DNA of 64,000 bases. Source: Bacteroidota bacterium. GTDB taxonomy: Bacteria; Bacteroidota; Bacteroidia; Flavobacteriales_D; Crocinitomicaceae. Positions 17 to 10,198 of the stretch are shown here, piece after piece (the stretch's first letter is position 1; each line of letters begins with the position of its first letter). The notes under the pieces are model-generated. The model was not told where the DNA came from and made no database searches. It was given only the letters and a program-made list of their open reading frames with translations. The stretch spans positions 1,178,001 to 1,242,000 of the forward strand of contig JASBTZ010000003.1 in the NCBI GenBank assembly GCA_030148165.1. Direction: 5' to 3'. The translations under genes were made by a program, and so were the position numbers.

Positions 17-2419
17 TTGAAAAAAGTAGACAACAGTAATTTTCGATTTGATGACGAGTTGAATATCAGGGAGATAGTCCTTAAATATCTTTCCTACTGG
101 AAGCTATTTATCTTATTTTTAGCAGCGTCATTTATCACGACGAAGGTTATTCTTAAATACACCCCCCGAAGTTTTGAATCAAAGGCTAAGCTATTGATCA
201 AATACGAAAAAGGGGGATCATACTCTGAGTTATCAGCATTTCAGGACTTAGGACTGTTCGAAGGCATCGGGGGATATAACAACCTCTACAATGAGCAGGA
301 AATCCTTAAATCGAGAACATTAATAGCAAATGTTGTTGAAAAGCTTCATTTCAATATTCAGTATTTCTTGGTGGGTACCAAGACCGGGATAGAACGAAAG
401 GAATTTTATGGAAATTCTCCTATTCTAATAGAATTTGAAAACGATGCAGATCGTAACATCAAAGGAAAGGCTAAACTTCAAATCAATGTAATTGGTGCAA
501 ATAAATTTGTGATCAAAGAGGTTGAAGAGTTTGCCGGTAAAACATTTCAGTTTGATCAAAAAATCAAATCATCCTTTGGGACTTTCTCCATTACAAAAAC
601 AAATTACTATAAAAGCGGTAAGGGTGAATTGAATGTATCGATTGTAATCAACCCGATAGAGGCTGTAATTACCGGTTTCCAAGGGAAACTTAAAGTTGAG
701 CCAATCAGTGACGAGGTAGATATCCTAAACCTAAGTGTGCGTGGTCCGGTTATATTAAAGAATAATCATTTTCTCGATACGCTGATCAAAGAACATGAAA
801 AGCAAACGATTGAAGATCAGCAAAAGATATATAAGAATACTACCGATTTTATCAATAACCGTATCGACATCATTTCACAAGAATTATCGGATGTAGAAAT
901 AGATGAGGAAAAATATAAAACCCAGTATGATTTCTCGGATATTTTGATGAATGAGAAATCGCTTTATGACCGAACGCTCTTTAATGAAAGAAGTTTAGTT
1001 GACGCTGAAATTCAGTTGGAATTGGCAAATTTCCTTTTGAAATATATCGAAGATCATCCTGAAAATGATGATTTGCTACCGACAAACCTTGGTTTGGAGG
1101 ATGCTTCAATTAATGAGGCTGCAACGGAATTCAATAAAGTAGCATTAGAGCGTGACAGAGTACTCTCCCATTCCAACCCGAATAACCCAACGGTTATTAA
1201 GTTAGAAAAAGAGTTAACCAGCATTAAAAATAGTCTCAGAGCTAGTTTGAAGAATCTCAAATCAACACTAAGTCTGGAGGTTCAGCGATTGAGAAATAAT
1301 GAATCGAAACTAAGCGCTAACATTTCAGATCTTCCAAAACACAAGCGAATAATTCGATCGATAGACCGTCAACAGCAAATAAAAGAGTCCTTGTATGTAT
1401 ACCTCCTGCAAAAGCGTGAAGAGAATGAAATTGCTCTTGCCGTGACGGAAGGAAACTCGAAAATCATTGAGCATGCATATAGCAATCGCATTCCGGTGAA
1501 CCCAAACAAAAAGCTATACTATGCCATGGCCCTGTTCATCGGCTTGTTTATTCCATTCGGATACATCTATATAAGGGATCTCATGGATAACAAAGTGAAA
1601 CATAAAGATGACCTTGATAAGTTTGGATTACCATTCCTGGCGACGATACCATTGGTAGCTAAAGATCAGAAAGTTGTTATTCGCAAAGGAGCTAATTCGC
1701 CTGAAGCAGAAGCATTCAGAATATTGCGAACTAACGCGGCCTTCCTTTTGAAGAATGATTCAGAAGATGGAAGTATCATATTAACCACTTCTACCCTGGC
1801 GAAAGAAGGGAAATCATTTGTAGCATTGAATTTGGCGACAGCATTCGCCTTGACAGGTAAACGTGCTATTGTTGTTGGTCTCGATCTAAGAGCACCGAAA
1901 TTAATGCAGTATGCAAACCTGAAAGAATCAGCCGGAGTAACGGATTACATTTTAAACCCGTCACTGGATCTTGATTCGCTGATTATACCTTCGCCGACCA
2001 CCGAAAATCTCTATTTCCTTCCATCCGGTATCACACCTCCAAACCCTTCTGAACTTTTATTGAGAGATGCGGCCAACACAATGTTCGAATCATTAAGAGA
2101 AAATTTCGACATCATAGTGGTTGATACCGCACCGGTAGGTTTGGTTACTGATACCTTGCTAGTTAGTGACCGTGCTGATGCCATCGTTTTCGTGGCCAGA
2201 GCACATTACCTTGAGAAAAAGATGTTGAGCGTTGTAGCTCAGCTTAAAGAAGAAGGTAAACTAAAGAATGTTGGAGTAGTTATCAATGCAGTTGACTTTA
2301 ACAAGTCCAGAGGTTATGGTTATGGCTATGGTTATGGCTATGGTTACGGTTATGGCCATGATTTTGAGAAAAGTCAGCTAAAGTGGTATCAAAAGCTGTT
2401 TTCAAGACGTCAGTCGTAA
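17..2419 (+). CDS. Wzc-like polysaccharide biosynthesis tyrosine autokinase (BY-kinase)
   Basis: Inner-membrane co-polymerase and tyrosine kinase that controls chain length and export of capsule or exopolysaccharide. The N-terminal Wzz-like part has a membrane segment near residues 32-45, a long coiled-coil periplasmic region and a second membrane segment near 500-520. The cytoplasmic kinase domain shows a Walker A variant (AKEGKS, residues 595-600), a Walker A' (VVGLDLRAPKL) and a Walker B (IIVVDTAPVG). It ends in a Gly-Tyr cluster of seven tyrosines, the autophosphorylation tail. Length (800 aa) is normal for the Bacteroidota fused form. The start is a TTG only 16 bases into the window, and no in-frame ATG lies close by. 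It probably ends an exopolysaccharide operon lying upstream of the window. Its stop overlaps the ATG of the next kinase gene (TAATG). Confidence 0.93.
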   Translation: MKKVDNSNFRFDDELNIREIVLKYLSYWKLFILFLAASFITTKVILKYTPRSFESKAKLLIKYEKGGSYSELSAFQDLGLFEGIGGYNNLYNEQEILKSRTLIANVVEKLHFNIQYFLVGTKTGIERKEFYGNSPILIEFENDADRNIKGKAKLQINVIGANKFVIKEVEEFAGKTFQFDQKIKSSFGTFSITKTNYYKSGKGELNVSIVINPIEAVITGFQGKLKVEPISDEVDILNLSVRGPVILKNNHFLDTLIKEHEKQTIEDQQKIYKNTTDFINNRIDIISQELSDVEIDEEKYKTQYDFSDILMNEKSLYDRTLFNERSLVDAEIQLELANFLLKYIEDHPENDDLLPTNLGLEDASINEAATEFNKVALERDRVLSHSNPNNPTVIKLEKELTSIKNSLRASLKNLKSTLSLEVQRLRNNESKLSANISDLPKHKRIIRSIDRQQQIKESLYVYLLQKREENEIALAVTEGNSKIIEHAYSNRIPVNPNKKLYYAMALFIGLFIPFGYIYIRDLMDNKVKHKDDLDKFGLPFLATIPLVAKDQKVVIRKGANSPEAEAFRILRTNAAFLLKNDSEDGSIILTTSTLAKEGKSFVALNLATAFALTGKRAIVVGLDLRAPKLMQYANLKESAGVTDYILNPSLDLDSLIIPSPTTENLYFLPSGITPPNPSELLLRDAANTMFESLRENFDIIVVDTAPVGLVTDTLLVSDRADAIVFVARAHYLEKKMLSVVAQLKEEGKLKNVGVVINAVDFNKSRGYGYGYGYGYGYGYGHDFEKSQLKWYQKLFSRRQS
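2312..2359 (+). repeat. Hexanucleotide repeat encoding the Gly-Tyr tail
   Basis: Eight consecutive in-frame hexamers of the form GG(T/C)TA(T/C) encode seven Gly-Tyr pairs followed by Gly-His. Slippage would add or remove whole Gly-Tyr units without a frameshift, so tail length could vary between strains (inference). Confidence 0.85.
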
Positions 2420-3249
2420 TGAATTTTCGTTTCCCGTTATCCGATGTAAACATTCAACTGGTTGATTCATTACCGGAAATAACGGATGTCAAATTCCGAG
2501 ATCAATTCACCTCCTTAAATCAAAATGAATTTAAATTTCATGTTCCTGAAATAGCAGACTTTTATGTCCAAAAAGGGAATGAAATTCTGATCCATGCGTT
2601 GTCAGACCCTATCAATAGGAATGGAATAGAACTCTATTTGAATGGCTCCATATTAGGAGTCGTCCTTCATCAACGAAAAGCTTTGCCTCTACACGGTAGC
2701 AGTGTCGCTTTTAAAGAGAAGGGATTGATTATTTGCGGCGATTCAGGATCCGGAAAATCAACACTGAGCTATGCGTTAAGCAAATTGCCTGAAATAGATT
2801 TCATATCAGATGATGTTTCGTTGATAACGTCTGATCCAATTGAAATCCAGCCTTTACCGGGACGAATTAAGTTATGGGATGATGCTATGGAATCATTCAA
2901 CAAACCTATGAAGGAAGCAGATCAGATTCGCGCAGATGTTCCAAAATACTTTATTAATCCTGAAAACACGGTTCAATCTCCGATTAGCCTCGACATCATG
3001 CTTATTCTGGAGCTTACTCAGGACGCAAACATATCTGTAAAGGAGATTCATGGTGTGGACAAGTTTAAAGTAGTCTGGGACGAAATTTATCGAAAGGAGT
3101 ACCTTAACGGAATGAAGCAGTCTGAAAAGGAATATTTCAATCTGATTACAGCCATTTGTGATAGGGTGCCGATCTTCATAATCAAGAGAAACGATGAATC
3201 AAAAGTGGAAGATCTGATAGAAGTCGTTATGGGTATCATAAATTCATAG
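2419..3249 (+). CDS. HprK-like lasso-peptide serine kinase
   Basis: A 276 aa P-loop protein of the HPr kinase/phosphorylase-related family. It shows a Walker A GDSGSGKST at residues 107-115, a preceding LHGSSV strand (residues 91-96) and an acidic SDD motif after the P-loop helix, as in HprK. It lacks the full N-terminal domain of true HprK. Homologues inside lasso-peptide clusters (paeninodin type) phosphorylate the C-terminal Ser of the precursor peptide. Here the gene is followed at once by lasso gene B2 and by three precursors that all end in Ser, which makes that role likely by context. The ATG at 2419 is preferred over an upstream GTG at 2383 because it forms a TAATG overlap with the tyrosine kinase gene, implying translational coupling. 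Function is inferred from motif and neighbourhood. Confidence 0.86.
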   Translation: MNFRFPLSDVNIQLVDSLPEITDVKFRDQFTSLNQNEFKFHVPEIADFYVQKGNEILIHALSDPINRNGIELYLNGSILGVVLHQRKALPLHGSSVAFKEKGLIICGDSGSGKSTLSYALSKLPEIDFISDDVSLITSDPIEIQPLPGRIKLWDDAMESFNKPMKEADQIRADVPKYFINPENTVQSPISLDIMLILELTQDANISVKEIHGVDKFKVVWDEIYRKEYLNGMKQSEKEYFNLITAICDRVPIFIIKRNDESKVEDLIEVVMGIINS

Positions 3250-3254
3250 CAATT

Positions 3255-3662
3255 GTGACAGGCCGGCTAAGTACATATCGCTCCTTGAACAAACATGAGA
3301 AGAAGCTATTTTGGGAAGCCCTTCGTAAAATCTATTGGTGCAAATTCCTGTTAATTTTTAACTCCTTTAAAAAACTCACTGTCAAATTTGCTGCTACTGG
3401 AAAAAATGATGCCCCTACCGAAGACCTCATTATCATCCGTAGAGCAATTAATAGAGCCAGTGGACTTGCTTTTTGGAGAAATAAATGTCTGGTTAATACG
3501 CTTTGTGCCCGCTGGATGTTGAATAATCGTGACATCAAATCTGAAGCTTATCTTGGTGTGAAACTGGAAGAAGGTAACACAAAAGCTCATGCCTGGATTG
3601 TTGCAGGAGACACCAAACTTGTTCACGAAGATCAAACTTATAAGGTAGTTTATACGTTTTAA
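3255..3662 (+). CDS. Lasso peptide B2 protein (transglutaminase-like leader peptidase)
   Basis: A 135 aa protein of the lasso B2/McjB C-terminal family, the cysteine protease that removes the leader peptide. The characteristic Cys is in NKCLVNTLCARW (Cys78), and the His is in AHAWI (His112). The third triad residue is not certain; Asp119 or Asp126 are candidates. The size fits the split-B architecture, in which the leader-binding domain (B1) is a separate protein; a PqqD-like gene lies at 6697. The start is a GTG, 5 nt after the kinase stop, so the two are probably one transcript. The three precursor genes follow downstream. Confidence 0.88.
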   Translation: MTGRLSTYRSLNKHEKKLFWEALRKIYWCKFLLIFNSFKKLTVKFAATGKNDAPTEDLIIIRRAINRASGLAFWRNKCLVNTLCARWMLNNRDIKSEAYLGVKLEEGNTKAHAWIVAGDTKLVHEDQTYKVVYTF

Positions 3663-3732
3663 TAATTAGGTAACATAAAATACTATTTATTATCTGAGTA
3701 GTTCAGTATATTTATAGATAATAATTGGGGAG

Positions 3733-3846
3733 ATGAAAAACAAACGAAAAAAATGGCGGACACCTTCGATTAAGCAGATTAATATTAAGAAGGATACTGG
3801 AGAAGTAATTATACATAAAAAAGAAGTGTCACCTAACTGGAGTTAA
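3733..3846 (+). CDS. Lasso precursor peptide 1 (A1)
   Basis: A 37 aa basic peptide read directly from the DNA. The leader shows W8-x-x-P11-x-I13-x-x-I16-N-I-K-K-D-T22-G23, matching the lasso leader pattern Y-x-x-P-x-L-x-x-L-G-x-V-x-x-x-T-x with Trp for Tyr and Asn for Gly. With Thr at the penultimate leader position the core is EVIIHKKEVSPNWS (14 aa), with Glu8 as candidate ring acceptor and Ser as the last residue. If cleavage falls right after Thr, the core starts with Gly and the acceptor is Glu9. A GGGGAG run lies just before the ATG. The sequence TATATTTA near 3708, one base off the -7 consensus, could be its promoter. It lies between the B2 and C genes. Confidence 0.85.
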   Translation: MKNKRKKWRTPSIKQINIKKDTGEVIIHKKEVSPNWS

Positions 3847-3928
3847 TTTTGTATTCTTGTACTTTATCCGTAATTTGTATTATTACTGCTATCCCACTAA
3901 GAAGCTTCAATTGAAGTAAAACCAGATT

Positions 3929-4036
3929 ATGAAGACAAAAAAGAAGTGGAAAAAACCGGAGGTGAGTCGATTAAATGTCAAAAAGACAAGCGAGATTATT
4001 GTTCACCAAAAAGAAGTATCACCTAACTGGAGTTGA
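3929..4036 (+). CDS. Lasso precursor peptide 2 (A2)
   Basis: A 35 aa peptide homologous to its neighbours. The leader has W7-x-x-P10-E-V12-S-R-L15-N-V-K-K-T20-S21. The predicted core is EIIVHQKEVSPNWS, with Glu at position 8 and a C-terminal Ser. Its 5' half is nearly identical in DNA to A3 (CCGGAGGTGAGTCGATTAAA shared), and its 3' end is nearly identical to A1 (TCACCTAACTGGAGTT shared). The 82 nt gap to A1 is AT-rich and contains the 12 bp palindrome CTTCAATTGAAG (3905-3916); no terminator is seen. Confidence 0.87.
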   Translation: MKTKKKWKKPEVSRLNVKKTSEIIVHQKEVSPNWS

Positions 4037-4117
4037 TTTTACTATCTCCCGGAAAATTTGTATTTTGTATATATGACACCTTCGTTATCCTTAGAAAGGA
4101 TAGTAAAAAAGTATACA

Positions 4118-4225
4118 ATGAACTCAAAGAAAAAATGGCAAAAGCCGGAGGTGAGTCGATTAAATATCAAAAAAACGCGTGAAATTATCATTCACGAAAA
4201 AGAACACTCACCAAACTTCAGCTAA
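4118..4225 (+). CDS. Lasso precursor peptide 3 (A3)
   Basis: A 35 aa peptide, the third tandem copy and the most diverged at its C-terminus. The leader has W7-x-x-P10-E-V12-S-R-L15-N-I-K-K-T20-R21. The predicted core is EIIIHEKEHSPNFS. It keeps Glu8, His5, Lys7, Ser10-Pro-Asn and the final Ser, but has His9 for Val and Phe13 for Trp. The 88 nt between A3 and the cyclase gene is AT-rich and includes TATCTTTA at 4253-4260, one base off the Bacteroidota -7 box. No further precursor copy was found in 3663-4313. Confidence 0.87.
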   Translation: MNSKKKWQKPEVSRLNIKKTREIIIHEKEHSPNFS

Positions 4226-4313
4226 TATTTTAATATTCTTTCGCGCTATTTATATCTTTATATAAGCGGTAAGGATAAAATAATTACTGTGTTAATCTCT
4301 TTAATACATTAGA

Positions 4314-6140
4314 ATGCTTTTTGGCGTCTTCGCAAACAACTCTGCACTAATTGATCAGCAAGCTGATAATTACAGGAAGATATTGGATCAAATCAGCTTT
4401 CAGCGTTGCAGTGAAGTAGATGTAAGACATAAGAATTTACAATTCACCTTATTACGCCATGAAAGTCTTCCTGAACAGGATAGTTATTTTATCGACCTGG
4501 AACGGGATGTGGTTGTTGTCGTATCCGGAAATATTTTCAACTTGCCCTTCCTGCTAAAAGAAGAGAATCTCGAAAATCTTTCACCAGCTGAATTCATCAA
4601 TCATGTTTATCACAAGAATCAACTTGATTTTCTTTCCAAATTGATTGGTGGATATAGTATTCTCATAGCTGATATCGGTAGGGCTCAGGTCTACGCAATT
4701 AAAGATGTCATTGGAACGGTTCCCATTTCTTACGGCCAAAGGGGTGAATATCTCTATTTCTGTTCAGATACGCATGGGCTTTCAAAAGGTCTCTTCGGTA
4801 ACGAAGATATCAATGAGGAATTCATCCATAGTCGTTTTTACGATTATGAGAATAACTATGTACAGACTCCGAATAGTCATATTAAGAAAGTCAGTCCCGC
4901 GCATTATGTCAAAGTTCAGAATGACAGCATTGAATTAATTCGTTATTGGGACCCTACAACAATTGACATCGACAACTCCATTGAATTCAATGAAGCCGTC
5001 AATCAGCTGAGAGAGTTGGTGCTAAGCAGTGTGAAGATGATGTCACAGGAAGATTATACGGCTGGAACGCATATCAGCGGAGGACTGGATTCCACGCTGA
5101 TCGCAACGCTGGCCAAGTCAAATTATCCGAAACAAGCTGAATTTCATGCCTTTACCTGGAGTCCATCTAATTTTCAAATGAACGATGATCTTCCTTTTGA
5201 TGAACGGGAAAATCTCAAAGAGCAGTGTCGCATTGCCGGATTGGTACCAGTATTCACAAATATTGATGTCAACGACTACCATAATTTTGTTGCAAACTGG
5301 AGGGCTCCAAGCGAAGCAATTTTTGAAGGGCCCGTCCTTAAAAATGCAAATGAAATAGGAGTAAACCTCCTTTTTTCAGGCTGGGGTGGTGATGAATTTA
5401 TAGGACTTCGAGATGAAGCGCTTCTATACGAATCGTTTCGCTCTATGCACATGAGTAACTTTTTTAAGTTATTCCGAAGAAAGGGGATGAAAGCGAAGAT
5501 CATGCACGTGGTCAATAATGCCTTGCTTCCTTCACGAAGACGGGAGTATTTTAAGTACAAGATTCGGCCATCCGTTTATCAGTATCTAAAGAATGGCATC
5601 AAATCAAATGAACTGGATACGGATAAATTCGCATGGTATCGTTCTAAAAAGGACTATCAGATAGGCTTGATCAATTATAATCATATAGCTCAGCGATGTG
5701 AAGACTGGTATATCAATGGTCAGCGAAATGGAGTTGTGTACAGATATCCACTACTGGATAAAAGAATCATTGAATACACCTTAAAACTAGATGTCGGATT
5801 ATTCGTCGATGAAAAAATTGATCGTCCTATCATGAGAGCTATTTGTAAAGACTTGATTACAGAAAAGATTCGCGCACTGCAGAAACAAAACGATCCTGTT
5901 ACGATGAGAAATGCGATGGAAGTTCAGCAACAGGCCTTTAAAGTATATCTCGAGCAATTTCCTGAATTTAAGGCAAATTCATACCTGAGTTTTGTCAATC
6001 TTGATCGCCTTGAAAAGGATCTTAGAGCCGAAATAAAGGCAGATGGACAGATTTCAAAGAAGCTCGGGTTTGCTTTGTACTACGTAAAAGTCGTACACGA
6101 ATACGTTCGCAATTATCATGAGGGAATGACGGCAAATTAG
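4314..6140 (+). CDS. Lasso peptide macrolactam synthetase (C protein, asparagine synthetase-like)
   Basis: A 608 aa protein of the asparagine synthetase B family, used in lasso clusters to adenylate the Asp/Glu side chain and close the macrolactam ring. The ATP-pyrophosphatase motif SGGLDST is at residues 255-261, and the second family motif GWGGDEF is at residues 356-362. The N-terminal glutaminase-like domain lacks the catalytic Cys2 (the protein starts MLFGVF), so it should not hydrolyse glutamine; this is typical of lasso C proteins and of other AsnB paralogues. Length agrees with the family. It follows the precursors by 88 nt. A plain asparagine synthetase is the alternative, but Cys2 absence plus adjacent B1, B2 and precursor genes argues against it. 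Confidence 0.9.
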   Translation: MLFGVFANNSALIDQQADNYRKILDQISFQRCSEVDVRHKNLQFTLLRHESLPEQDSYFIDLERDVVVVVSGNIFNLPFLLKEENLENLSPAEFINHVYHKNQLDFLSKLIGGYSILIADIGRAQVYAIKDVIGTVPISYGQRGEYLYFCSDTHGLSKGLFGNEDINEEFIHSRFYDYENNYVQTPNSHIKKVSPAHYVKVQNDSIELIRYWDPTTIDIDNSIEFNEAVNQLRELVLSSVKMMSQEDYTAGTHISGGLDSTLIATLAKSNYPKQAEFHAFTWSPSNFQMNDDLPFDERENLKEQCRIAGLVPVFTNIDVNDYHNFVANWRAPSEAIFEGPVLKNANEIGVNLLFSGWGGDEFIGLRDEALLYESFRSMHMSNFFKLFRRKGMKAKIMHVVNNALLPSRRREYFKYKIRPSVYQYLKNGIKSNELDTDKFAWYRSKKDYQIGLINYNHIAQRCEDWYINGQRNGVVYRYPLLDKRIIEYTLKLDVGLFVDEKIDRPIMRAICKDLITEKIRALQKQNDPVTMRNAMEVQQQAFKVYLEQFPEFKANSYLSFVNLDRLEKDLRAEIKADGQISKKLGFALYYVKVVHEYVRNYHEGMTAN

Positions 6141-6168
6141 CTAACTTAGGGAAAAGAAAATTGAAAAA

Positions 6169-6693
6169 TTGGGAGTAAATAGTTTAGAAGAACAAGAGAT
6201 ATGTATATCCTGTGGGTTCTGCTGTGACAGAACCTTATTCGATGTAGCAAGATTAACTGCATCCGATGAGTTATGGGGTAAACTGGTAGATCGCGAAACT
6301 GAAATCGACGGTAAACGTTTTATGCGCCTACCCTGTCCCTACTTTGATTCAAAGTGTACCATTTACGACAAGAATAAACCAGCAGTTTGCTCCAGTTTTA
6401 AATGTAAGGTCTTAAAGGATTCAATAAACGGGGTTTTTACCAAGCAAGAAGCACTTGATATTATAAAGGAAGCTAAAAAAACCAGGGATGAATTGGTGAA
6501 AGAATACCGATTACTTAAAGGTCCGGAAAAAACATTTCGCGAAATTTTTGTGGATGCTCATAAGAATCCTGAGTTTGAGAAAAACAAGGAACTACGCCTG
6601 ATTAAGATGAAGGCCGATCTGTTAGATATTCTTTTAACCAAGTATTTCAAACCGGAAGATGCCTTTAAGGAGTTTTATGAATTGATCGATTAG
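6169..6693 (+). CDS. YkgJ-family cysteine-cluster protein in the lasso locus
   Basis: A 174 aa soluble protein with the CxxCxxCC pattern of the YkgJ/CxxCxxCC family at residues 12-19. Further cysteines lie at 56, 63, 74 and 79, enough to bind zinc or an iron-sulfur cluster; the metal is not known from sequence. The C-terminal half is charged and helical. The start is a TTG, 28 nt after the cyclase stop. The next in-frame Met lies beyond the first cysteine cluster, so the TTG is the better choice. It sits between the C and B1 genes with a 3 nt gap to B1, so it belongs to the operon, but I know of no defined role for this family in lasso biosynthesis. Confidence 0.8.
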   Translation: MGVNSLEEQEICISCGFCCDRTLFDVARLTASDELWGKLVDRETEIDGKRFMRLPCPYFDSKCTIYDKNKPAVCSSFKCKVLKDSINGVFTKQEALDIIKEAKKTRDELVKEYRLLKGPEKTFREIFVDAHKNPEFEKNKELRLIKMKADLLDILLTKYFKPEDAFKEFYELID

Positions 6694-6696
6694 CGG

Positions 6697-6966
6697 ATGG
6701 AAACATACAAGAGAAAGAAAGATAAGCTATCCAGTAAAATTCAGGATGAAACAGTAATGGTCGACATTGATCAGGGACAGTATTTTTCGCTTAACGGAGT
6801 TGGCACAGACATCTGGGACCTACTGGAAGAGGAACAGTCAATTGATTCAATAATAAAGGAGTTACTCAATAAATATGACATCGACGAGGAAACGTGTCGC
6901 GAAGAGACCGTGAATTTTCTCAATGAAATGCTTAAATTAAAGCTTATCGACGTCAGCAATGAGTAA
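6697..6966 (+). CDS. PqqD-like lasso peptide B1 protein (leader-recognition element)
   Basis: An 89 aa PqqD-fold RiPP recognition element. Family features are visible: VMVDIDQGQYFSLNGVGTDIWDLLEE followed by a helical C-terminus, with the conserved tract YFSLNGVGTDIW at residues 28-39. In lasso systems B1 binds the leader through its conserved Y/W-x-x-P motif and delivers it to B2, and precursors with a W-x-x-P motif lie in this cluster. The gene starts 3 nt after the YkgJ-type gene and overlaps the nucleotidyltransferase gene by 8 nt, so the three are co-translated. Confidence 0.9.
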   Translation: METYKRKKDKLSSKIQDETVMVDIDQGQYFSLNGVGTDIWDLLEEEQSIDSIIKELLNKYDIDEETCREETVNFLNEMLKLKLIDVSNE

Positions 6967-8134
6967 TCCTTCAGAACATAGTCTGCCAGTATCATTTTCA
7001 ACTACGCTTAAGTATCTTATTGAGCAGGTTTTCGAAACAGTTTCGACGGTTGAAGAGCAGCAGGTAGACTTCAAAGAACTGATAAAGTTGATCCATTGTC
7101 ACCGTCTGGCAGCACTCGCTCAACACCGGATTAACCCTTCTGATCTACAGGTTAAAGAAGAACTTGATCAGATTTACTATTTCAACAAGATAGAACAGCT
7201 AAGGTCGCTTGCTGAACTTATTCGAATAGACTTAAAATTAAAAGACGTCGGTGTAGAGATCATGCCGATTAAGGGACATATTTTAAGTCAACTACTTTAC
7301 GCTGACCCCACCGAGCGAACCTCGCGGGATATTGATATTTTACTCAAACCAGCGGATGTTATAAAAAGCATCGAAGTTCTTCAACAAAACGGATACCATC
7401 TTGACACATTGTTTGACACGAATAAACAGCGTGAAGCAATTTTAAAGCATTACCACAATCTTGAACTACGTAACAAAGAAGAAGGATTCACGATTGAGGT
7501 CCACTGGCGATTGTCTGCTTCGCGAAGTTTCCGATTCGATTTGGAGAAAATCTGGAATCATGGGCAAACCATCGAAATTGGTGAAACGCGTTTACGATTA
7601 ATGCGCAAAGATGACCTGCTCGCTTATCTCTGTCTGCATGGAATGATGCATAGCTATTTCCGACTTCATTGGCTGGCAGATGTGAATAATTTACTGAACA
7701 AACTTGAAGAACAAGAATTCGATCAAATACGTAAAGAACTTGTCGGTTCAGAGCTTGAGATCTATTTTATTAGTACGCTATACCTCTTACATAAAATCGC
7801 GAATTACCCTTTATCACCTGAAATCGAAACCGCTATAAGTAAAAATAGATCGCGCGTGATTAAATTGTATGAAATCGCTGTGAAAGAAATAGCCGCAAAC
7901 AATTTCTTAACCGAACGGCCCCGTGATATCGGCTCCCGAATAAAGCGAACCTGGCACCACCATCGACTTCAATTTTTAACCGGGGGTGTTAAGGCATTCT
8001 TTAAAAGTATCTTCGGTAGAAATGTACGTCCACAGAATTGGAAGATCTTTGTTTTCCCGGACAGTATCTTCTTTCTTAATCATCTATTCTCAAGAATTAT
8101 TTGGGTATTCGGGAAGTTAAGTGGGCGTATTTAG
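6959..8134 (+). CDS. NTP_transf_5-like nucleotidyltransferase of the lasso cluster
   Basis: A 391 aa protein of the uncharacterised nucleotidyltransferase family often found in lasso and other RiPP clusters. The nucleotidyltransferase signature is seen as MPIKGH (Lys105-Gly106) followed by RTSRDIDILL with metal-binding Asp124 and Asp126. The rest is helical. In paeninodin-type clusters this gene accompanies the peptide kinase, and a role in adding to the phosphorylated C-terminal Ser has been proposed; here that is inference from context. Its ATG overlaps the B1 stop by 8 nt. The gap to the next gene is 70 nt, so the lasso operon probably ends here. Confidence 0.85.
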   Translation: MSNPSEHSLPVSFSTTLKYLIEQVFETVSTVEEQQVDFKELIKLIHCHRLAALAQHRINPSDLQVKEELDQIYYFNKIEQLRSLAELIRIDLKLKDVGVEIMPIKGHILSQLLYADPTERTSRDIDILLKPADVIKSIEVLQQNGYHLDTLFDTNKQREAILKHYHNLELRNKEEGFTIEVHWRLSASRSFRFDLEKIWNHGQTIEIGETRLRLMRKDDLLAYLCLHGMMHSYFRLHWLADVNNLLNKLEEQEFDQIRKELVGSELEIYFISTLYLLHKIANYPLSPEIETAISKNRSRVIKLYEIAVKEIAANNFLTERPRDIGSRIKRTWHHHRLQFLTGGVKAFFKSIFGRNVRPQNWKIFVFPDSIFFLNHLFSRIIWVFGKLSGRI

Positions 8135-8204: not shown

Positions 8205-8978
8205 ATGAGATCATTTCTCCAAATAAAATATGTTTTAATACTTCTGTTGACCTGTCTGTCAATAATTGGTCACTCCCAACGGAATGTTAAGGATTCTGCT
8301 ATCGGTACTGTATGGTTAAGTATCCAATACGGCTTAAGCTTAACGTCAGGAGACCTGGCGGATAGACATGGATATTTTAATTCCATTGGAGTCTATGGCG
8401 GCTACAAAACAAAAAAGAACTGGGTTTTCGGAGGTGAAGGCAATTTCCTTTTTGGCGGTGATGTTCGGGTTCCAAACCTATTTGATGGACTCACTGATTC
8501 GTATGGAAATATCACCGATCAGAATGGTGACATCGCCATTGTTGTAGTGTATTCCAGAGGAATGTATATTGATGCTTCCGTAGGGAAAATCATTCCTGTA
8601 TGGAGCCCGAATGAAAACTCCGGATTATATTTCAATTTCGGAGCAGGATATCTGGCACATAAAATCAGGGTTGAGACACAGGATCATGTTGTTCCTGAGC
8701 TGGAATTGGATTATCGTAAAGGTTATGACCGCCTAACTACGGGCTTCAACGCACAACAATTCATCGGTTATTCATACATGGCAAATCGAGGTTTTGTAAA
8801 CTTCTACGGTGGGTTTTACGTTATGGAAGGCTTCACTTTTAATCGAAGGACCATCTTCTTTGATCGTCCGGAAGAACCGGTATCTACTGATATGATGCTG
8901 GACCTGATTTATGGTGTAAAACTCGGGTGGTTAATACCGATCTACAAAAGAAAACCTAAAGAATATTATTTCAATTAG
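8205..8978 (+). CDS. Outer-membrane beta-barrel protein, function unknown
   Basis: A 257 aa protein with a clear N-terminal signal peptide (MRSFLQIKYVLILLLTCL... ending near HSQ at residues 23-25). It then has alternating glycine- and aromatic-rich strands such as NSIGVYGGYKTKKNWVFGGEGN and YFNFGAGYLAH, typical of a small outer-membrane barrel. No enzymatic motif was recognised. The stop overlaps the GTG start of waaA by one base (TAGTG), so it may be co-translated with the Kdo transferase gene. It is probably an outer-membrane protein, perhaps related to LPS or surface structure, but nothing in the sequence fixes the role. Confidence 0.7.
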   Translation: MRSFLQIKYVLILLLTCLSIIGHSQRNVKDSAIGTVWLSIQYGLSLTSGDLADRHGYFNSIGVYGGYKTKKNWVFGGEGNFLFGGDVRVPNLFDGLTDSYGNITDQNGDIAIVVVYSRGMYIDASVGKIIPVWSPNENSGLYFNFGAGYLAHKIRVETQDHVVPELELDYRKGYDRLTTGFNAQQFIGYSYMANRGFVNFYGGFYVMEGFTFNRRTIFFDRPEEPVSTDMMLDLIYGVKLGWLIPIYKRKPKEYYFN

Positions 8979-10198
8979 TGCGCCTGCTCTACGACATAGG
9001 AATTCGCTTTTTGGGATTGTCCATTCGGATTGCGTCTCTGTTCAATGAAAAAGCGAAACAATGGATAAGAGGTCGGAAGAACATGTATTCAAATCTTCCC
9101 GCTACAGAAGGTCGCAAAGTGGTATGGTTTCACTGCGCATCTTTGGGTGAGTTTGATCAGGGACTGCCTCTAATGAACAAGATCAAAGAGAGAAATCCGG
9201 AAGTATTTCTACTGGTTAGCTTCTTTTCTCCTTCGGGAATGGAACATTACAACAAAAGAAATCATCAGGTCGATCACGTTACTTACATACCGCTCGACAC
9301 AAATGCCAGAGCGACTAAATTTATCTCGACGTACAAGCCTGAGATCGTTTTCTTCGTGAAGTATGAATACTGGTCACGACACATATTTGCGGCTAAGAAA
9401 TCCGGAGCTAAAATCTATAATGTCAGTGGTTTATTCCGACCGGGACACCGATTCTTCAAATGGTACGGATCATACTTTCGCAAGACATTAAGAGCATTCG
9501 ATCACTTCTTTCTACAAACTGAAGAGTCTCAGGAATTACTCAAATCAATTAACATCTACAACACAAGTGTTACCGGTGATACCCGTTATGACAAAGTCAT
9601 TGACAACAAAAACAATATGACACCTGACGAAGCATTGGGAACTTTTGCACAGAATAAAGATGTACTCGTGATTGGCAGTTCCTGGCCCGAAGATGAACGC
9701 GTTTTACTTCCATTCATTAATCAATCGGATATTCGCGTAATTATTGCTCCGCATGACATTTCCGAACCGCATATCATTGGGATTGAGAAGAAACTAAGCA
9801 GACCATATGTTCGCTACACCGAGATAAATGATTCAGCTTCGAATGCAGATGTGATTATCCTGAATACAATTGGTCACCTAGCAAGTGCATATTATTATGG
9901 AAAAATAGCCTATGTGGGAGGTGGTTTTTCAGGGTCCCTTCATAACATACTTGAACCTGCAGTGTTCGGGCTTCCCGTTATTTTCGGCCCAAAATACAGT
10001 CGTTTTCCAGAGGCATCTGATTTCATTAAACATGGATTCGGGTTTTCAATTGATAATACCACCGCTTTTATTGAAGCGTATGACGAGATCCACAATAACC
10101 TGGAGAACATTAGCGCAAGAGAAGTTTCTTATGTCGAGTCACATTCAGGTGTAACTGACAAAATTCTTGAACACCTTAGTTCCAGCTCAGTACTCTAA
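8978..10198 (+). CDS. waaA: 3-deoxy-D-manno-octulosonic acid (Kdo) transferase
   Basis: Transfers Kdo from CMP-Kdo to lipid A precursor at the inner membrane. The 406 aa length fits the Bacteroidota family. Family motifs include WFHCASLGEFDQG (the GT-30 N-terminal motif), FVKYEYW, GDTRYDKV, IGSSWPEDE and YVGGGFSGSLHNILEPAVFGLPVIFGP. A hydrophobic N-terminal anchor is present. The GTG start overlaps the preceding stop (TAGTG); the protein begins MRLLYDIGIRFLGLSIRIA. The 3' end overlaps the convergent oxyR gene by 23 bases. Confidence 0.93.
   Translation: MRLLYDIGIRFLGLSIRIASLFNEKAKQWIRGRKNMYSNLPATEGRKVVWFHCASLGEFDQGLPLMNKIKERNPEVFLLVSFFSPSGMEHYNKRNHQVDHVTYIPLDTNARATKFISTYKPEIVFFVKYEYWSRHIFAAKKSGAKIYNVSGLFRPGHRFFKWYGSYFRKTLRAFDHFFLQTEESQELLKSINIYNTSVTGDTRYDKVIDNKNNMTPDEALGTFAQNKDVLVIGSSWPEDERVLLPFINQSDIRVIIAPHDISEPHIIGIEKKLSRPYVRYTEINDSASNADVIILNTIGHLASAYYYGKIAYVGGGFSGSLHNILEPAVFGLPVIFGPKYSRFPEASDFIKHGFGFSIDNTTAFIEAYDEIHNNLENISAREVSYVESHSGVTDKILEHLSSSSVL

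Follow-up and report, generated by a model that had tools for sequence, protein, structure and literature searches.

The 64,000-nucleotide window analysed here, a stretch of contig JASBTZ010000003.1 from a Bacteroidota bacterium of the Crocinitomicaceae, very likely carries, at positions 2419-8134, a lasso-peptide biosynthetic cluster related in type to those of paeninodin and pseudomycoidin. On the plus strand its genes run in the order K-B2-A1-A2-A3-C-Y-B1-N. The original prediction, made without database searches, had already assigned this segment to the lasso-peptide class, and that assignment is now supported by the models for B1 and B2, by a precursor profile, and by the tree and gene neighbours of C. 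The coordinates and features it gave all agree on recheck, from the ATG of K at 2419 to the end of N at 8134. The cluster comprises the following features:

2419..3249, plus strand: K, an HprK-like kinase of 276 amino acids whose ATG shares the last base of the stop codon of the preceding Wzc-like gene
3255..3662, plus strand: B2, leader peptidase of 135 amino acids with C78 and H112 (NF033537, Transglut_core3)
3733..3846, plus strand: precursor A1, 37 amino acids, predicted core EVIIHKKEVSPNWS at 3802-3843
3929..4036, plus strand: precursor A2, 35 amino acids, predicted core EIIVHQKEVSPNWS at 3992-4033
4118..4225, plus strand: precursor A3, 35 amino acids, predicted core EIIIHEKEHSPNFS at 4181-4222 (in the mechanical list of open reading frames it begins at TTG 4058)
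4314..6140, plus strand: C, an AsnB-like predicted macrolactam synthetase of 608 amino acids (Pfam domains, C tree)
6169..6693, plus strand: Y, a CxxCxxCC (YkgJ-type) protein of 174 amino acids with a TTG start (PF03692, conserved cysteines)
6697..6966, plus strand: B1, a PqqD-like recognition element of 89 amino acids (NF033536, PqqD, PDB matches)
6959..8134, plus strand: N, an NTP_transf_5 nucleotidyltransferase-like protein of 391 amino acids (PF14907)

The gene set, the precursor family, the active-site residues and the conserved gene order can be read directly from the sequence. A search with hidden Markov models, proposed earlier as a check on B1 and B2, placed both above lasso cut-offs. 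B2 scores 62.1 bits against the lasso model NF033537 (cut-off 33; NCBIfam) and 57.5 bits against Transglut_core3 (cut-off 26; Pfam), and it has the Cys78 and His112 that had been pointed out. B1 narrowly passes the lasso PqqD model NF033536 (81.7 bits, cut-off 80; NCBIfam), scores 74.9 bits against PqqD (cut-off 23.4; Pfam) and is matched by solved lasso B1 proteins in the PDB (9x90, E 1.2e-12; TbiB1, E 4.2e-10). C carries Asn_synthase and GATase_7 domains, both above the Pfam cut-off, with the motifs SGGLDS at 255 and SGWGGDE at 355. Scanning named genomes with an alignment of three C rows yielded 55 loci as relatives, whose genes were labelled by iterated profiles. In a tree of 53 C proteins, the window's C groups with those from other lasso clusters, and B1 and/or B2 are present at 46/53 of the related C loci in the DNA covered. 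Neighbours and tree thus support a lasso-type C, the hidden Markov models not deciding the matter. As had been noted, C begins MLFG, without a Cys2; cysteine occupies position 2 in 0/53 C proteins and position 3 in two, as judged from called open reading frames with mechanical starts. Viral contigs searched with C alone gave no relative; one viral-contig locus (L062), a match to the three-row C alignment at 24% identity, was set aside and used no further.

The precursors are the second line of evidence. The 651-nucleotide gap between B2 and C (3663-4313) does contain the three small open reading frames, of 37, 35 and 35 amino acids, that had been described, each with the leader motif W-x-x-P-x-[VI]-x-x-[LI]-N-[VI]-K-K and a 14-residue core. 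A profile of 47 rows from relatives, with the window and the congeneric locus L007 excluded, scores A1-A3 at E 1.9e-8, 6.1e-8 and 5.5e-7, with the next of 786 small open reading frames in the whole window at E 1.6; these rows had themselves been gathered through a profile partly seeded by the window's own precursors. All three precursors share the pattern T-x|E-[IV]-I-[VI]-H-x-K-E-x-S-P-N-[WF]-S. Most changes between copies fall at third codon positions (19/34, 23/39 and 14/23, with two A1 codons omitted for alignment). A2 and A3 score 16.5 and 16.3 bits against the paeninodin model NF033524, under its cut-off of 27, and A1 has no match. Upstream of A2, at 3849..3877 on the plus strand, lies TTG-N19-TAATTTG, which we take to resemble a Bacteroidota-type promoter; with a single match across 3601-4330, where a mononucleotide shuffle gives an expectation of 0.089, it is a weak signal, and the site might give A2 and A3 a transcript of their own. 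The window has no Rfam match at gathering thresholds.

Conservation of the arrangement extends beyond the window. The window's C pairs with that of L007, a Flavobacteriales metagenome-assembled genome of the same genus (support 100/100), within a set of 22 (100/99). The members of this clade, several on short contigs, include K in 19, B2 in 18, B1 in 16, N in 15 and Y in 14. The congener G162 keeps the order K-B2-A-C-Y-B1-N with a C that is 38% identical; its core differs (WLVWIFKKEIGKGPGS, ring 9, serine at the end).

By homology to characterized systems, we infer every chemical step, including threading, the Glu1-Glu8 bond and the site of phosphorylation. B1 would bind the W-x-x-P leader motif and present the precursor, K would phosphorylate the C-terminal Ser14, and N would add a sugar or nucleotide onto the Ser14 phosphate. 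B2 would cleave two residues past the leader threonine, and C would activate the Glu8 side chain with adenosine triphosphate (ATP) and join it to the alpha-amine of Glu1. The predicted product is a 14-residue core (E1...E8...S14) with an 8-residue Glu1-Glu8 ring, placed by the rule that a threonine stands at position -2 of the core (Thr(-2)), and a 6-residue tail V/H-S-P-N-W/F-S, and the three precursors would give three congeners. Recomputed masses of the dehydrated cores (1646.878, 1646.842 and 1660.821 Da) match the values calculated earlier by hand. Y is a putative metal or iron-sulfur accessory protein to which this route assigns no particular step.

K matches HprK models weakly (HprK_rel_A 31.9 bits, cut-off 200; Hpr_kinase_C 18.2 bits, cut-off 33.3), and a PDB search with it gave nothing usable (best E 0.019). 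Its active-site residues, H92, G107-x2-G110-x-G112-K113-S114 and D131-D132, fit the motif given for BsfK, H148-G163-G166-G168-K169-S170-D186-D187 (PMC10368454, which gives such residues for further lasso kinases too), with one residue more ahead of the DD pair, and the lasso-kinase residues are found in 16/19 K proteins of the C clade. N scores 143 bits against PF14907 (cut-off 31.2; Pfam). As described in PMC9266682, PadeK phosphorylates the C-terminal serine of its precursor ahead of maturation, PsmK also phosphorylates a C-terminal serine, and PsmK and PsmN are both required for the phosphate and hexose on pseudomycoidin. All three window cores have serine as their last residue. K, N and the terminal serine would fit this PadeK/PsmK/PsmN scheme, which is not universal, and by analogy the three window peptides are probably phosphorylated.

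Several observations weigh against this assignment or against parts of it. First, C falls under both relevant NCBIfam cut-offs, with 96.3 of 525 bits for the lasso cyclase model NF033535 and 124.3 of 267.1 for asn_synth_AEB (TIGR01536). Second, the cluster had been called complete, although gene Y was overlooked and a crude motif search saw no ATP-binding cassette exporter in the window or in 17.5 kb upstream. Third, Glu1 lies outside the ring-start residues listed in PMC12670498, where Gly, Cys, Ser and Ala are given as observed earlier and Asn is reported as new; such a residue is a usual rather than a defining feature, so membership of the class is not excluded by it, and Glu at ring residue 1 would be unusual. 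Finally, the target of BsfK is Ser3 and not the C-terminal serine (PMC10368454), and a C-terminal serine is found at 7/13 loci with Y, at 3/5 clade loci without Y and at 14/18 loci outside the clade. K as a strict terminal-serine kinase across the group is rejected, because 6/13 of the Y-bearing loci end otherwise.

The start of the core is where the strongest competing explanation arises. The Thr(-2) rule parses 46 precursors with Glu or Asp at position 7, 8 or 9, and the first residues in their first parses are G 19, S 13, K 6, E 3, T 2, W 1, D 1 and A 1. Two of the three Glu starts come from the window (A1 and A2); the third is an alternative first parse of an L036 precursor for which the second parse gives Gly, so within this set a clear Glu1 is met solely in the window. 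The script left A3 unparsed, its pattern having matched further upstream; read by eye it conforms, so that Thr(-2), E1 and E8 are present in 3/3 precursors. There is a small chance that the same lasso machinery acts on a core that starts elsewhere, with Glu1 not a ring residue (for example, Ile1 and a ring of seven residues closing on the same Glu). The missing Glu in the ring-start list would favour such a start, as would the 7-residue spacings that also parse in some relatives, L035 and two of the three L041 precursors among them, but the rule that parses the 46 precursors yields Glu1 in all three window copies. We prefer the predicted Glu1-Glu8 ring.

Relatives also show other core types. 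Clusters L009, L010, L012, L013, L018, L021 and L026 form a core family that starts [SG]-G-[ST]-...-E8 and mostly lacks a terminal serine; most of the seven clusters do have K, and the BsfK example would point to position 3 of their cores as a candidate phosphosite. At L041:5197-5722, three tandem precursors have lysine after Thr(-2), which would make lysine ring residue 1.

The gene that sets this cluster apart is Y. It passes PF03692 narrowly (24.0 bits, cut-off 23), and homologues score just under that cut-off (L171 21.3, L176 22.9, L014 21.1) or have no match (L170, L028). Its cysteines, at positions 12, 15, 18, 19, 56, 63, 74 and 79, are spaced as C-x2-C-x2-CC and C-x6-C-x10-C-x4-C, and all eight are invariant in the 15 sequences of a homologue alignment. 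No solved structure in the PDB resembles it (best E 0.049). The pattern suggests that Y is probably a cysteine-rich, metal-binding protein.

Only a minority of the lasso clusters in Bacteroidota include Y. Among 395 evenly sampled genomes of the phylum, 36 have a match to the lasso B2 model and 2 to the Y profile, the window's genome and G388, with lasso genes adjoining in both; among 37 regions around other B2 matches, covering 39 of the 40 matches listed, Y occurs in 1, that of G388. Of the 8/22 clade clusters without Y, it is lacking at L015, L020, L023, L025 and L028, and the contigs of L009, L016 and L024 end at most 564 bases past C, where a downstream Y cannot be judged. After B1, L028 encodes a 343-amino-acid protein (L028:8049-9080) with Y-like cysteine spacing by pattern and no Pfam match. 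L011 keeps Y within the cluster but places it between the B2 and precursor genes. Mapped onto the C tree, the Y label needs 8 changes against a shuffled mean of 12.7 (1/500 shuffles as low; starred branches force 3). A single origin of Y in this tree, with 8 label changes, is not supported.

A survey of 200 genomes of the Runella family gave 18 Y-profile matches in 17 genomes, 11 with a lasso C gene and 7 without. Five strong matches sit in clusters ordered K-B2-A-C-Y-B1, six weaker ones adjoin a lasso C gene that is of a different type (one of the six matches has an internal stop), and seven, one of them strong, have no lasso gene in the stretch covered. The association of Y with lasso genes is therefore recurrent and not exclusive; an exclusive link is rejected by the 7/18 matches away from lasso C. 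The strong relative at L170:8149-8700 (177 bits) has no lasso genes within the 17 kb examined. The weaker relatives beside C define a second lasso group in the family (L171, L172, L173, L174, L176 and L182); in L171 the leaders of four candidate precursors are of the W-[IV]-S-P-x-M type and a Thr(-2) is not evident, and in L172 a stop codon splits Y. Further afield, Y occurs together with lasso genes in a metagenome-assembled genome labelled Thioalkalivibrio (L008), and a partial Y-type protein lies near K and B2 in a delta-proteobacterial one (L060), which in each case may be transfer or mis-binning.

What Y might do is the boldest part of our reading, and the evidence is mixed. Every core at 13/13 Y-bearing loci contains lysine, against 12/23 loci without Y (4/5 in the clade, 8/18 outside), and lysine frequency is 0.130 against 0.036. 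The Fisher p of 0.0026, uncorrected, is the lowest among 20 residues (about 0.05 after correction for 20), and with one core per locus inside the clade, 13 against 5, the Mann-Whitney p is 0.0015; both values are too low because the loci are related. Dropped from the comparison were the unparsed L047, L059, L061 and window A3, the contig-end loci L009, L016 and L024, matches with E >= 0.01, and the Y-bearing loci L019 and L027, which have no precursor match. Lysine is missing from several candidate cores of the second lasso group with Y (L171, L173), which weakens the idea, and lysine richness is a lead only. In the flagellin lysine methyltransferase FliB, which has eight conserved cysteines, a [4Fe-4S] cluster is bound by a CX4CX3CC motif that the authors of the FliB study compare with PF03692 (PMC8598068). 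A literature search of main texts, with subscription papers mostly missing, returned no paper that joins lasso peptides to the terms of Y's family. It is a long shot, by analogy in the cysteine motif, that Y is an undescribed, FliB-like iron-sulfur tailoring enzyme that modifies the core, perhaps at lysine (K6/K7), and that the window peptides are the first lasso peptides with Glu1.

The flanks of the cluster are as follows:

17..2419, plus strand: Wzc-like polysaccharide co-polymerase/kinase, upstream flank (GNVR 46.5 bits, cut-off 27.7)
8205..10198, plus strand: a 257-amino-acid protein (no Pfam match), then a 3-deoxy-D-manno-octulosonic acid (KDO) transferase, downstream flank (Glycos_transf_N 132.4 bits for the second)

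A Wzc-type gene also precedes K in the congeners G162 and G183, the pair of the 257-amino-acid protein and KDO transferase also follows N in G183, and the cluster neighbours in G162 are the same as the window's. Directly 5' of the cluster is a polysaccharide locus (L064:250-15014, upstream of the window) with sulfate-activation and sulfotransferase-like genes, as in G162; the upstream genes are presumably of the CysC, CysD, CysN and CysQ types (sulfate activation), together with genes for a flippase, glycosyltransferases, sulfotransferase-like proteins and Wza. The 257-amino-acid protein and KDO transferase also occur in five further congeneric genomes, where their neighbours are different sugar or sulfate genes and no lasso gene is seen.

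That the cluster is decaying or silent, its genes kept and no peptide made, strikes us as quite improbable. In G183 (L140 and L148), which has its lasso genes at the same site, Wzc and then K lie on one contig, and K-B2-B1-N, the 257-amino-acid protein and KDO transferase on another; A, C and Y are missing from the B2-B1 interval, a gap that may reflect natural loss or an assembly fault. Lasso genes occur in 3/34 genomes of the genus and C itself in 2/34 (the searches covered all 34 genomes for C and, apart from the window's, six for B2). Against these signs of loss, all window genes are open, their active-site residues are there and most differences among the precursor copies fall at third codon positions. 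It is scarcely credible that K, N and the PqqD-like and AsnB-like proteins serve the adjoining polysaccharide locus and the small reading frames are incidental: the cluster does lie directly 3' of Wza/Wzc, HPr-rel-A sets are a precedent for such proteins in a polysaccharide locus, and the K and N families, going by NCBIfam model names, presumably occur with other systems too, but B1 and B2 pass lasso cut-offs, the precursor profile matches and the relatives in the C clade sit in lasso clusters.

Read as a lasso-peptide cluster, this segment matters in several ways. Lasso clusters of Bacteroidota have been termed underexplored (PMC7533575, citing Tietz et al. 2017). The window offers three short tandem cores with a predicted ring start beyond the list of observed residues, and a full kinase and nucleotidyltransferase set in a Gram-negative host. 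The accessory gene Y is short, easy to express and found repeatedly in clusters of this kind; were it to modify the peptide, lasso tailoring would gain a new type of reaction.

Comparison with known systems places the cluster among its nearest counterparts. Y and FliB are both cysteine-rich with eight conserved cysteines, and FliB has one [4Fe-4S] cluster; the motif is CX4CX3CC in FliB (PMC8598068) and CX2CX2CC in Y, so the likeness drawn here is one of cysteine motif. Metanodin, as described in PMC12670498, also has an unusual ring residue 1 set by the Thr(-2) rule, Asn1 there and predicted Glu1 here. The bsf cluster of Bradymonas sediminis (BsfA/B1/B2/K) has the kinase active-site pattern in common with the window, and its B1 aids both kinase and peptidase; it has Ile at -2 and a phosphorylated Ser3 (PMC10368454), whereas the window has Thr at -2 and a terminal serine. 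Pseudomycoidin from Bacillus pseudomycoides likewise pairs a kinase and a nucleotidyltransferase-like protein (PsmK/PsmN) with lasso genes; its core is unrelated to the window's, and no Y is mentioned for it in the description in PMC9266682. A further close parallel is paeninodin from Paenibacillus dendritiformis (PadeA/K/B1/B2/C; PMC9266682), which shares split B1 and B2, C, a terminal-serine kinase and a W-x-x-P type leader. The window differs in having three precursors, all under the NF033524 cut-off, another core, the additional genes N and Y, and a Bacteroidota host: it is a system that would work like paeninodin, yet lies outside that curated family.

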